Assembly: GCF_041355105.1 (NCBI RefSeq)
Contig: NZ_JBFUPK010000001.1
Span: forward strand, 868,001 to 932,000
DNA from: Terriglobus sp. RCC_193
GTDB taxonomy: Bacteria > Acidobacteriota > Terriglobia > Terriglobales > Acidobacteriaceae
Direction of reading: 5' to 3'
DNA length: 64,000 bases
Both the position numbers and the translations under genes were made by a program. Below the pieces are notes generated by a model that was not told the origin of the DNA, did not search any database, and saw only the letters and a list, made by a program, of their open reading frames with translations. The first letter of the stretch is position 1. Every line of letters begins with the position of its first letter. Positions 22,341 through 25,844 of the stretch are shown piece by piece.

Positions 22341-22883
22341 CTAGTGGGTGCGCGAGTCAGGCGGTAGAGGCATGCTGAACAGGTCAGGCTGTTGCGTTTC
22401 CTCCGCTGGAATCGGGGTGGAGGCCTTTCGTTTTGATGGACTCGTGACTACCGCCAGTACCTCCATCTGCTCGATGGCCGCGCGGGGAATGTAAAGCCTC
22501 TGCGTATTGCCGCGGATGTCAGGAGGGACCAATTGAACTCCCATATCCTCCACCCAGCCGTCGGCCAGGGTCAGGTCCAGCGGGGCCAGACCTTCGATCC
22601 GGTCGCCGTCGCGCAGAGTCAACCGCAGCCACAAACCTTCGGTGCGGGGCCGCGCCAGAAATGTCTTCCGCAGCAGTCTTTCCGGGGTGGACGTGTCGTT
22701 CGTATTAAAGTCGCGTACGAACGCGGCATACTTCACCTCGGACAACGGAACTTGCTGCACCCTGCCGCTGAGGTCCAGCAAGTCAAGGCAATCAGCATGG
22801 ATGAAGCCGCTGGGGGGAAGATAGCCCCACAGCAATCCGGGGGAGAAGCGGCGAAGAACGACCTTTTTCTGCGATCCCGGCAT
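22341..22883 (-). CDS. DUF6982-like protein
   Basis: A 180-residue soluble protein with a two-part core: KKVVLRRFSPGLLWGYLPP, then DLSGRVQQVPLSEVKYAAFV followed by RDFNTNDTSTPERLLRKTF, and later RLTLRDGDRIEGLAPLDL. This resembles the DUF6982 family as I recall it from Acidobacteria. Function unknown. It begins the minus-strand cluster with lpxD (8-bp gap). Charged, no signal peptide. Confidence 0.65.
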   Translation of the reverse strand: MPGSQKKVVLRRFSPGLLWGYLPPSGFIHADCLDLLDLSGRVQQVPLSEVKYAAFVRDFNTNDTSTPERLLRKTFLARPRTEGLWLRLTLRDGDRIEGLAPLDLTLADGWVEDMGVQLVPPDIRGNTQRLYIPRAAIEQMEVLAVVTSPSKRKASTPIPAEETQQPDLFSMPLPPDSRTH

Positions 22884-23115: not shown

Positions 23116-25167
23116 ATGGCTGATTATATCTATCTGCTGGAAAACCGCCTTTCGCACGCGCAGCAGAAGGCCGTCGGTGCACTCCGCACCATTGCTCGCG
23201 AGAGCGATGCCACTATTTTCCTCACAGGCGGCGCAGTCCGCGACCTGACTGCGGGGGCTTCCGTCCGGGATATCGACCTGACCATTCAGGGCGACTTGTC
23301 TCGCATACGAAAAGGCTTAGGGGCTGCTGGATTTGAGATTGTGGGCGAAAATGCCTCCGCTCACCAGCTTTTCCTGACCTATTCCGGTGGTGTCCGGCTG
23401 GAACTTAGCTCGGCCGTTACCGTTTCGTGGCCGAAGCCGGGCAAGCCGAAATACGAGCCGGGCAGCCTCATCGACGACCTTCGCGGCCGCGACTTTACCG
23501 CGAATGCGATGGCCATCTCGCTGAACGAAGGTTCCTACGGCCTGTTGATGGACCCGCTGAACGGCGTTGCGGACATTGAAAACCGGGAACTGCGCCTCGT
23601 CAGCAACTATGGGTTTATTGAGGAGCCTTCGCGGCTGATGCGTGCCGTTCGGTTGATGTCGCGACTGGGCTGGCAGTTGGAAGAGAAGACCCGTCAGCGT
23701 TATGAGACTGCAAAAGAAGAAGGTTACATCTCCGCTCTGAGCGCCTGGAACAAGGGATACGAGCTGGAGGAGATCTTCCACGAAGAAGACCCGGTGCGCG
23801 TACTGCGCGCTCTGGAAGCAGAAGGCTGGATGCAGCACCTGTTCCCGGCACTGCAGTCGGCGAAGGTAAACACGGCTTCGCTCTCGGACCTGTACACCCG
23901 CCAGGGCGAATTACAGATACAGGGCGTCCTCGGTCATATTGCCGCCATCGCATTTCCGTTGGTGACGGGCAAGATGTCCGCAGGCGACGTTTCCTCGTTA
24001 AAGAAACTGATCGCGCGGCAGGGGTTTGTCCGGGAGATTGAGTCTCTGGACGCCCGCGTGAAGGACTTTGCTGCAAAACTCACGGCAAAGGAAGCCGCCG
24101 CGCCGTCTGTTGCCTGGAAGTTACTGCACGCAACTGAACCAGATCTGGTTCTGGCCACGTACTTCAGCAGCAAGAGTGCTCCGGTACAGGCGCGCCTGAA
24201 GACCTTCCTCACAGAGTCTCCGAACGCACGGCAACGCATCCCATATCCGTTGCTTACGGAGATGCGGATTACTCCGGATCTTCCGGGTTATAACGAACTT
24301 CTGGATAAGCTGTTCTTCGAACTGATGGATGGGCGGCTTGCGACTCCGGAAGAGATGAAGGCCTTCCTGGAGCCGTATTCACCCCCGGCACCTCCGCCGC
24401 CGCCGAACCTGCGTCGTGCTCGTGCACGCAAGGAACCCAAAGGCCGCGGTAAGAAGAAAGCAGTCGAGGTCGATATCGAGGGCTCCGACCTGGAAGGCAT
24501 TCCTCTGACTGTTGCAGCGGAAGAGGAACTGGCTGGCCTGGAAACCGGCCTGACCGAAGAGGGCGATCTCACGGGGCCGAATCGTGGTCCTGAGCCAAGC
24601 AGGAAAGAGCCGATCGAGAAGGTGGCTCCGCTTCCGGCAAAGGGCGCTCCGAAAGATAAGAAGGTAGCCAAGGCCGTTGCGGAAAAGAAAGCTCCTGCCA
24701 AGGCAGTTCCGACGGCCAAGCCTGCGGCGAAACCTGCTGTAATTGTGAAGCCTTCTATCCCTGCGAAGAAGACGACACCAGCCAAAGCGGCTGCGCCTGT
24801 AAAGGCTGCTGCTCCGGCAAAGAAGGTGGCTGCAAAGCCGTCTGCCCCAACAAAGAAAGCGCCAGCCAAAGCTGTGACGAAGACCGTCGCGGCAAAACAA
24901 CCGGTCAAGAAAGTTGCTGCCAAGCCCATTAAGAAGGCAGCACCGGTCAAGAAGGCTTCCGCTAAGCCCGTCAAGAAGCCTGTGAAAGCAAAGCCAGCCA
25001 AAGCCGTCGCGAAGAAAGTCGTCGCGGTGAAGAAGGCCCCCGCCAAAGTAGTCAAAAAAGCGGCCCCGGCTAAACCGGCGAAGGCACCTGCGAAAAAGGC
25101 AGCTCCAGCAAAGAAGGTAGCTGCCAAACCGGCAAAGAAGGCTCCTGCCAAAAAGGCGCGCCGGTAA
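23116..25167 (+). CDS. tRNA nucleotidyltransferase/poly(A) polymerase-family protein with histone-H1-like tail
   Basis: 683 residues in three parts. Residues 1-150 form a class II nucleotidyltransferase head (LTGGAVRDL near 36-44, the DIDLTI carboxylates near 54, GRDFTANAMAI near 127). Residues 150-420 form the helical RNA-binding body (NRELRLVSNYGFIEEPSRLM). From about 420 a charged linker leads into a Lys/Ala/Pro-rich region (about 505-683) of PAKKA/AKKVA units like eukaryotic histone H1 or AlgP-type tails. The family adds CCA or poly(A) to RNA 3' ends. All tRNAs here already encode CCA, so repair is the likely role. The ATG has a GGAGACTGGAACGG upstream. Confidence 0.88.
   Translation: MADYIYLLENRLSHAQQKAVGALRTIARESDATIFLTGGAVRDLTAGASVRDIDLTIQGDLSRIRKGLGAAGFEIVGENASAHQLFLTYSGGVRLELSSAVTVSWPKPGKPKYEPGSLIDDLRGRDFTANAMAISLNEGSYGLLMDPLNGVADIENRELRLVSNYGFIEEPSRLMRAVRLMSRLGWQLEEKTRQRYETAKEEGYISALSAWNKGYELEEIFHEEDPVRVLRALEAEGWMQHLFPALQSAKVNTASLSDLYTRQGELQIQGVLGHIAAIAFPLVTGKMSAGDVSSLKKLIARQGFVREIESLDARVKDFAAKLTAKEAAAPSVAWKLLHATEPDLVLATYFSSKSAPVQARLKTFLTESPNARQRIPYPLLTEMRITPDLPGYNELLDKLFFELMDGRLATPEEMKAFLEPYSPPAPPPPPNLRRARARKEPKGRGKKKAVEVDIEGSDLEGIPLTVAAEEELAGLETGLTEEGDLTGPNRGPEPSRKEPIEKVAPLPAKGAPKDKKVAKAVAEKKAPAKAVPTAKPAAKPAVIVKPSIPAKKTTPAKAAAPVKAAAPAKKVAAKPSAPTKKAPAKAVTKTVAAKQPVKKVAAKPIKKAAPVKKASAKPVKKPVKAKPAKAVAKKVVAVKKAPAKVVKKAAPAKPAKAPAKKAAPAKKVAAKPAKKAPAKKARR
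24640..25164 (+). repeat. Low-complexity Lys/Ala/Pro codon repeat tract
   Basis: About 525 bp of imperfect AAG/GCN/CCN repeats inside the nucleotidyltransferase gene encode about 175 residues of PAKKA-like units. Codon choice at third positions varies (GCC/GCT/GCA/GCG), which argues for selection on the protein and not recent DNA slippage. The reverse strand is open over long stretches because of the biased composition, and these are not genes. Confidence 0.85.
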
Positions 25168-25183
25168 ACGAAAGAGAGACAAC

Positions 25184-25231
25184 AGAGAAGGGCGGCGCAT
25201 GCTAGGGTTGGCCTATGCGCCGCCTTTCTCT
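25184..25231 (+). promoter_or_regulatory. 17-bp hairpin enclosing the start codon of the YdcF-like gene
   Basis: 25184-25200 pairs with 25215-25231 over 17 bp with one G-T wobble, closing a 14-nt loop. The 3' arm contains the ATG (25215) and the first codons of the next gene. The loop contains AGGG, a candidate ribosome-binding site. A T-rich run (TTTCTCTTT) is part of and follows the 3' arm. The structure can serve as a terminator for the upstream gene, as a translational control element, or both. Confidence 0.6.
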
Positions 25232-25844
25232 TTGGCTTCTGGGCATTGTTGTCTGTGCCGCTCTTCTGTATTTCCTTGTTCCCATCGTTTCTTATGAGAC
25301 GATTCCTAGTCGCAATACCAACGCTGCCCACTTTGATACGTTGATCGTCCTGGGACATCCTGCGCAGGCCGATGGCTCTCCTGATCCCGAAATGCGGGAG
25401 CGGGTGGAAGAAGCCGTCCGAGAGTATCGCGCCGGCATAGCCCCAAACATCATCATGAGTGGCAGTTCGGCCCACAACCACTTTGTTGAAGCGAAGGTTA
25501 TGGCGGACCTGGCAGAGCATGAGGGCGTCCCTGCGAATGCGGTGATTGAAGAGGATAAGGCTCAGGACACGATCCAGAACATCTGGTACAGCCGCGTGAT
25601 CATGCAACAGAGGGGATGGAACTCAGCGGAAGTGATCAGTTCTGCTTATCATCTACCCAGAACATCACTGATCCTGCAGCATTACACCGGCCCGCTCGCA
25701 TTCTCCTGGCGGACACACGCTTCTCTTTGGCCATCGGAATATGGGGCATGGAAGCGGATTCAGTATCGCTGGCATGAGGCGTTAGGCAGCGTGAAACTGC
25801 GCCTCTATGGCTTCGGCCATCGTAAATATCTTCCGCAGGCATAA
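25215..25844 (+). CDS. YdcF-like (DUF218) membrane-anchored protein
   Basis: A 209-residue protein: an N-terminal transmembrane anchor (LWLLGIVVCAALLYFLVP, about residues 5-22) and a DUF218 domain with HFDTLIVLGHPAQADGSPD, IIMSGSSAHNHFVEA, ANAVIEEDKAQDTIQN and SSAYHLPRTSLIL. Family members such as SanA, YdcF and ElyC are linked to envelope barrier and peptidoglycan functions in Enterobacteria. The biochemical activity is not settled. The start codon lies in a strong hairpin. If that hairpin is a true terminator, the real start might be an internal GTG, but the membrane anchor supports the ATG at 25215. Confidence 0.85.
   Translation: MRRLSLWLLGIVVCAALLYFLVPIVSYETIPSRNTNAAHFDTLIVLGHPAQADGSPDPEMRERVEEAVREYRAGIAPNIIMSGSSAHNHFVEAKVMADLAEHEGVPANAVIEEDKAQDTIQNIWYSRVIMQQRGWNSAEVISSAYHLPRTSLILQHYTGPLAFSWRTHASLWPSEYGAWKRIQYRWHEALGSVKLRLYGFGHRKYLPQA

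Follow-up and report, generated by a model that had tools for sequence, protein, structure and literature searches.

A predicted second class II nucleotidyltransferase of Terriglobia with a long cationic C-terminal tail

The window analyzed here is a 64,000-nucleotide stretch of the Terriglobus sp. RCC_193 genome. It holds a gene for a putative class II nucleotidyltransferase with a cationic C-terminal tail, next to a divergently transcribed DUF6982 gene (Table 1). The nucleotidyltransferase gene is a single unbroken ATG open reading frame of 683 codons. Its start is conserved as M[AP]DY, with M1 and D3 invariant in two alignments.

Table 1. Features of the locus (window positions)
Feature	Position	Strand	Description
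Whole gene	23116..25167	+	Putative class II nucleotidyltransferase paralogue of 683 aa that ends in a cationic tail
Folded core (head, neck, body, tail domain)	23116..24375	+	Residues 1-420; predicted class II nucleotidyltransferase, from pLDDT and fold matches
Motif A, GGAVRD...DID	23227..23277	+	Residues 38-54; catalytic Asp52 and Asp54 correspond to TmCCA Asp55/Asp57 (alignment; accessible part of PMC3925840)
Glu96	23401..23403	+	Third catalytic carboxylate; corresponds to TmCCA Asp99 (alignment; accessible part of PMC3925840)
Motif B, GRDFTANA	23485..23508	+	Residues 124-131
Base-reading motif, EEPSR	23620..23634	+	Residues 169-173; EDxxR in most relatives
Linker	24376..24603	+	Residues 421-496; a proline-rich start gives way to basic (LRRARARK) and then acidic sequence; pLDDT is low beyond about residue 431
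Lys/Ala/Pro tail	24604..25164	+	Residues 497-683; net +54; predicted disordered
DUF6982 (PF22478) gene	22341..22883	-	Divergently transcribed; 180 aa; Pfam; model of two small beta-barrels

PolyA_pol (PF01743) is the sole Pfam domain of the protein, matching residues 34-160 with 59.1 bits against a cut-off of 23. An AlphaFold2 model was built from 54 sequences; the structure alignment took 53 of the 72 listed named orthologues. Confidence was high throughout the core (pLDDT 93-98 in 10-residue blocks 2-42, 85 in block 1 and 86 in block 43), and the remainder was predicted to be unstructured, with pLDDT of about 50. Residues 1-422 of the model aligned with solved class II enzymes at Z scores from 24.7 down to 16. 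The top match in both sequence and fold was the Thermotoga maritima CCA-adding enzyme (3h37/3h38), with 113.5 bits and, for 3h38, a Z score of 24.7 (rmsd 15.8, 405 residues), at about 21-22% identity over the fold alignment. Next came 4wby and 1vfg, which we take to be the Aquifex A-adding enzyme (about 101 bits; Z 23.7 to 4wby), followed by the poly(A) polymerase entry 3aqm (36 bits; Z 18.2). Sequence and fold scores thus gave the same order, and domain and modeled fold place the core in the class II nucleotidyltransferase superfamily. The best NCBIfam match was the A-adding model NF041569, with 109.8 bits for residues 5-413 on model positions 453-868, which is far below the equivalog cut-off of 1440. 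The window protein shares the nucleotidyltransferase head and neck with this DHH-CBS A-adding enzyme, but it lacks DHH, DHHA1 and CBS and has gained a disordered cationic tail. The solved T. maritima chain, at 441 residues, has no such tail.

The genome carries a further PF01743 gene. It lies at C2:90241 and encodes an HD domain as well as an EEDKLR motif. Its protein best matches CCA-adding enzymes, scoring 169 bits with 6ibp and with 1miv and 97 with 3wfo, an entry of the CC-adding type. The window gene is therefore neither the sole nor the canonical CCA gene of its genome. A check for PF01743 covered 11 of the 40 class genomes that lack the window type; 10 of the 11 had exactly one gene, and none was found in G020. 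Those 10 single genes were all of the canonical type, scoring 308-447 bits to the canonical enzyme of this genome. Because one canonical-type gene is present in 10 of these 11 genomes, and because all four tRNA genes in the window encode CCA, the window protein is probably not needed for CCA ends. By sequence comparison the core belongs to a second, divergent paralogue in a genome whose CCA-type enzyme is intact. An earlier note on this DNA had called the enzyme core ordinary. That description did not hold, given the CCA-type gene elsewhere and the catalytic residues altered or lost in several sister lineages.

G020 (family f4) is estimated to be 100% complete, and PF01743 was not found there at E ≤ 0.001; either the draft has a gap there, or the genome lacks any detectable class II nucleotidyltransferase.

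The gene was present in 18/19 genomes of the genus, its own included. The other 17 copies share 60-95% identity with it and lie in open frames of 584-804 aa. One genome, G016, lacked it: in this draft of 320 contigs the canonical paralogue alone was seen. Across the class, the core was found at E ≤ 1e-30 in 259 of 299 sampled genomes. C-terminal extensions were measured from where the phmmer match to a 445-residue query stops and hence include the linker; the window's own row was cut at the locus end, giving 215 instead of 238. In the window's family (f1, window included), all 69 distinct sequences had an extension of 54-281 aa, with a median of 188. These were net positive in 66 cases, the remaining three standing at -45, -5 and 0. 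Named relatives with an intact DxD pair include Edaphobacter lichenicola, Granulicella aggregans and Silvibacterium bohemicum, with extensions of 191, 211 and 218. Other families had short extensions (f7, 43-91 aa in 13/13; f15, 73 and 79; f12, 114; f5, 24, 33 and 55) or none (f6 and f8, 2-12 aa in 10/10; f3, 24). The long tail is typical of family f1 and sits atop an older core. The architecture that the earlier note proposed to look for in related acidobacterial proteins is family-wide. None of the outcomes it named as fatal was seen: the tail is not a separate gene, the frame is not shifted, and close orthologues carry the tail.

In one altered-motif relative, L069 (G268), Asp makes up 23% of the extension, which is acidic instead of cationic (net -45) and stands in the same register after a conserved PPAPPPP-basic linker.

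Beyond the class, the phylum gave 64 matches, of which 30 lay in open frames of at least 850 aa; among the 20 strongest the figure was 13. Four phylum proteins from outside the class were scanned. Three combined DHH and DHHA1 with the nucleotidyltransferase, two of these also with CBS, and the fourth (454 aa) had the head domain alone. With NF041569 the three DHH proteins scored 597-817 and the fourth 151, all below the cut-off of 1440. The simplest history would be that the DHH-CBS part was lost and the tails were gained afterward.

The tail itself is 187 aa long and consists largely of 56 K, 58 A, 29 P and 22 V (30% K, 31% A, 16% P). It is preceded by a linker segment (residues 431-496, 66 aa, net charge -2), first basic and then acidic, that follows a proline-rich stretch. 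No other stretch in the six frames of the window passed the K/A/P filter. Lysine is encoded by 19 AAA and 37 AAG codons, and alanine is spread over its four codons with 12-17 each. Compared with 500 synonymous shuffles, the tail DNA contained 4 repeated 12-mers (shuffled mean 4.4) and a longest exact repeat of 13 nt (mean 13.6), and TRF reported just one 2-copy 12-mer. With no excess of repeats by either measure, a recent tandem expansion of DNA as the origin of the tail was ruled out. A tandem-repeat or frameshift artefact was likewise ruled out by the extensions found in many separate genomes. Across eight close pairs, dN/dS was 0.06-0.17 in the tail and 0.02-0.07 in the core; the sequence and length of the tail diverge faster than the core. 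Because the DNA is no more repetitive than its shuffles and tail dN/dS is low, the amino-acid make-up of the tail appears to be maintained by purifying selection. The long Lys/Ala/Pro tail described in the earlier note was thus confirmed, as was its suggestion, drawn from varied synonymous codons, that the protein sequence is under selection. To see whether other proteins of the genome share the tail, it was searched against the own genome (1e-6, and E up to 10). Both searches returned this gene alone, the second row at the looser limit lying in the same open reading frame, in a setting where composition correction may hide others.

Two antisense open reading frames lie opposite the tail, at 24288-25607 (-), encoding 439 aa rich in Phe, Ala and Gly, and at 24379-25200 (-). 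We take both as a mechanical shadow of the Lys/Ala/Pro codons; the former could be mis-annotated as a gene.

According to the accessible part of PMC3925840, the catalytic carboxylates of the T. maritima enzyme (TmCCA) are Asp55, Asp57 and Asp99, and its base-reading residues are Asp174 and Arg177. By alignment, these five residues correspond to Asp52, Asp54, Glu96, Glu170 and Arg173 of the window protein. All three carboxylates are therefore kept in the window copy, and the base-reading site departs from the canonical EDxxR, with Glu170 in place of Asp and Arg173 retained. Conservation among relatives was assessed with 184 cores, reduced to 164 distinct ones (65 from 80 named loci), a convenience sample and not a random one. 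All five residues were strictly kept in 77/164 cores and the base-reading Asp in 110/164. The three carboxylates (Asp, Asp, Asp/Glu) were kept in 95 cores, and at least one was missing in 69 by this strict count; an acidic residue stood at all three places in 117/164.

A FastTree phylogeny of the 164 cores, with local supports and with long branches flagged (L182 with L201 among them), required six changes to explain the absence of the DxD pair in 29 rows, against a shuffled mean of 27. Twenty-one of these 29 rows formed one clade with local support of 100, all sharing GG -> GD and Asp54 -> Glu. At residue 173 this clade has Leu in 16 rows and Thr in one, with Arg kept in four. Every genome sampled from genera g2 and g14, nine in total, falls in this clade. 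Its members retain the fold, an intact motif B and extensions of 184-286 aa. Pairwise dN/dS within g2/g14 was 0.04-0.28 (32/36 pairs computable), with dS mostly saturated. A canonical-type gene with intact motif A was found in 5/5 searched genomes of the clade. Conservation of head versus body was 0.73 versus 0.70 in the clade, 0.77 versus 0.59 in active sisters and 0.83 versus 0.70 in a Granulicella-like set. Near-equal conservation of the two parts is as expected if constraint in this clade had shifted from catalysis to binding.

The other eight rows without a DxD pair were scattered, and L071 and L090 differ by Asp52 -> Glu alone. Three loci on named Acidobacteria MAG contigs (L167, L182 and L201) have GGPMRD, with Thr, His or Val at the first catalytic Asp, and their motif B is changed from RRDF to RRGF, SRGF or similar; one of them still carries a 176-aa cationic extension. 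The third carboxylate is replaced by Ser in families f7 (13/13), f8 (4/4) and f15 (2/2); in f7 (13/13) the base-reading Asp is also replaced, by Gln, Ala or Lys. The altered lineages are predicted to be inactive; we word this as a prediction because exchanges between Asp and Glu can be tolerated and the alignment of the third column is less sure in distant rows.

In the window's own genus, Ala takes the place of the first catalytic Asp in L011 (G015; VRALDFT), with the rest of the gene intact, in a fragmented draft where one error is possible.

The explanation we consider best, and hold at a little less than even confidence, is that Terriglobia have here a second class II nucleotidyltransferase, akin to the nucleotidyltransferase part of DHH-CBS A-adding enzymes, whose main task is to hold RNA and which possibly still adds A. 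The folded core would grip the 3' ends of tRNA or similar RNA. The disordered Lys/Ala/Pro tail would hold the RNA backbone electrostatically and independently of sequence, slowing release, and the acidic linker may hold the tail away from the core when RNA is not bound. Because its catalytic carboxylates are intact, the protein of the window species probably still adds A, or another nucleotide, through a base-reading site altered from Asp to Glu. Several sister lineages have probably lost transfer while fold and extension persist, and RNA holding is for this reason taken as the more conserved function; nucleotide addition would not be essential to the wider family.

This RNA-holding explanation draws on the core fold and its nearest relatives, on a tail that is long, charged, selected and predicted disordered, and on the near-universal positive charge of the f1 extensions. 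It also accords with the canonical CCA-type paralogue, present in the own genome and found alone in most checked genomes without the window type. The cores with missing carboxylates point the same way, among them the 21-row clade, which keeps fold and extension with dN/dS of 0.04-0.28 and conserves head and body equally where active sisters favor the head. Several observations weigh against it. Catalysis may be the main job of the window copy, since its three carboxylates are intact, and Asp/Glu exchanges may leave activity in other members, given the 117 cores with acidic residues at all three places. Motif B is intact in the 21-row clade, where dS is saturated for most pairs. The f6 and f8 cores are tail-less, so the tail is unnecessary for core function there, and one f1 extension is strongly acidic, with two others at or below zero.

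Tethering to nucleic acid is a plausible idea for the tail and, by analogy, would be its likeliest role. According to the accessible part of PMC6821194, proteins of prokaryotes that bind DNA or RNA are enriched in low-complexity regions rich in lysine and arginine. The window tail, at 187 aa, 30% K, net +54 and pLDDT of about 50, has the properties of a long, disordered, lysine-rich C-terminal extension. The closest precedent is the topoisomerase I of Streptomyces and other actinobacteria, which acts on nucleic acid and ends in an H1-like extension rich in lysine; the lysine repeats stabilize the Streptomyces enzyme on DNA and raise its processivity (accessible part of PMC7398561). Its core acts on DNA and is unrelated to the window core, and we imply no homology between the tails. 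This precedent serves RNA holding, and it also serves the proposal of a nucleoid or DNA tether of the histone H1 or AlgP kind, with the enzyme acting on RNA near DNA or having a role on DNA. The H1-like composition of the tail agrees with such a tether, but the attached core has the fold of an RNA-end enzyme, and Pfam and NCBIfam gave no H1-type family match for the protein at E ≤ 0.001. We consider a DNA tether quite improbable. The least probable account sees the tail as low-complexity sequence that is tolerated and serves no specific purpose. Its faster divergence and its short or absent counterparts in other families would fit, but tolerated sequence is at odds with the low tail dN/dS, the lack of DNA repeat excess and the presence of an extension, mostly net positive, in every f1 sequence.

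Two further explanations leave catalysis at the center. An RNA-decay enzyme that works like a poly(A) polymerase would place A tails on RNA fragments and use its tail for affinity to non-tRNA substrates, in parallel to E. coli PcnB. The protein does belong to the same superfamily as bacterial PcnB, it is a second nucleotidyltransferase beside a CCA-type enzyme, and its carboxylates are intact. The C-terminal end of E. coli PcnB, acidic and then Arg-rich, resembles a short version of the layout, although its basic part is Arg-rich and spans only about 25 residues. The PAP I signature given in the accessible part of PMC8208693, which E. coli PcnB carries as judged by eye, matched 0/164 cores, the window protein among the negatives. 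Together with the weak similarity to 3aqm and the altered carboxylates of many relatives, this makes a poly(A) polymerase an unlikely reading. The other explanation casts the protein as the A-adding half of a split CC-/A-adding pathway of tRNA maturation. Its best NCBIfam match is an A-adding model, and the closest structures include a solved A-adding enzyme (an identity that fits the accessible part of PMC3925840). The remaining gene of the genome nevertheless resembles full CCA-adding enzymes more than the CC-adding type, 10 of the 11 checked genomes have a single gene, of the canonical type, many members have altered base-reading and catalytic residues, and the tRNA genes in the window encode CCA. 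We regard a split pathway as improbable, though less so than the DNA tether and the tolerated tail.

If RNA holding is the correct reading, a protein that occurs through most of a class of abundant soil bacteria, and that could easily pass as a poly(A) polymerase or tRNA nucleotidyltransferase, is an RNA-binding paralogue that combines a selected cationic tail with repeated natural changes at catalytic residues. Its intact, altered and apparently broken members, tailed and tail-less, would form a comparative series for the role of the tRNA nucleotidyltransferase fold without nucleotide transfer. The non-ordinary core is the more interesting part of the finding. Among the matches listed in searches of the open literature, with subscription journals mostly outside their scope, we found no paper on the acidobacterial protein, and the matches listed for pseudoenzymes held no tRNA nucleotidyltransferase.

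The DUF6982 neighbor offers a lead. Within fetched flanks of 1.5-4 kb, counting loci at contig ends, DUF6982 was found at 17/18 loci of the genus, 28/30 further f1 loci and 15/30 loci of other families, and within the flanks of named loci at 36/44 and 31/36. It lay on the strand opposite the nucleotidyltransferase in 49/49 named loci with a delimitable open reading frame. PF22478 was detected in 107/151 class genomes and was absent from 14 control genomes. An obligate partnership was ruled out by G021, G030 and G038 (f5), which have the nucleotidyltransferase without PF22478, and by G071, G095, G100 and G157, which show the reverse. The link is therefore one of neighborhood and not of strict co-occurrence, and we treat the association, partly linked across genomes, as a lead only. 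A broader scenario, which we think unlikely, would have an A-adding-type enzyme turned into an RNA chaperone or scaffold in Terriglobia, non-catalytic in some lineages, working with an Sm-like two-barrel DUF6982 in RNA quality control or decay, with nucleotide addition as an optional relic. The open literature searched returned no paper naming DUF6982. Its model, from an alignment that took 40 of the 49 listed proteins, shows two small beta-barrels with a mean pLDDT of 88. Fold searches gave no match at Foldseek E ≤ 0.001 and no VIA Z of at least 5. Among the weak matches were Tudor, Hfq, LSm, YaeO and lipoprotein barrels; the top Foldseek rows were 53BP1 tandem Tudor domains, with Synechocystis Hfq lower (1.1 Å over 49 columns, 26% identity, E 0.04).
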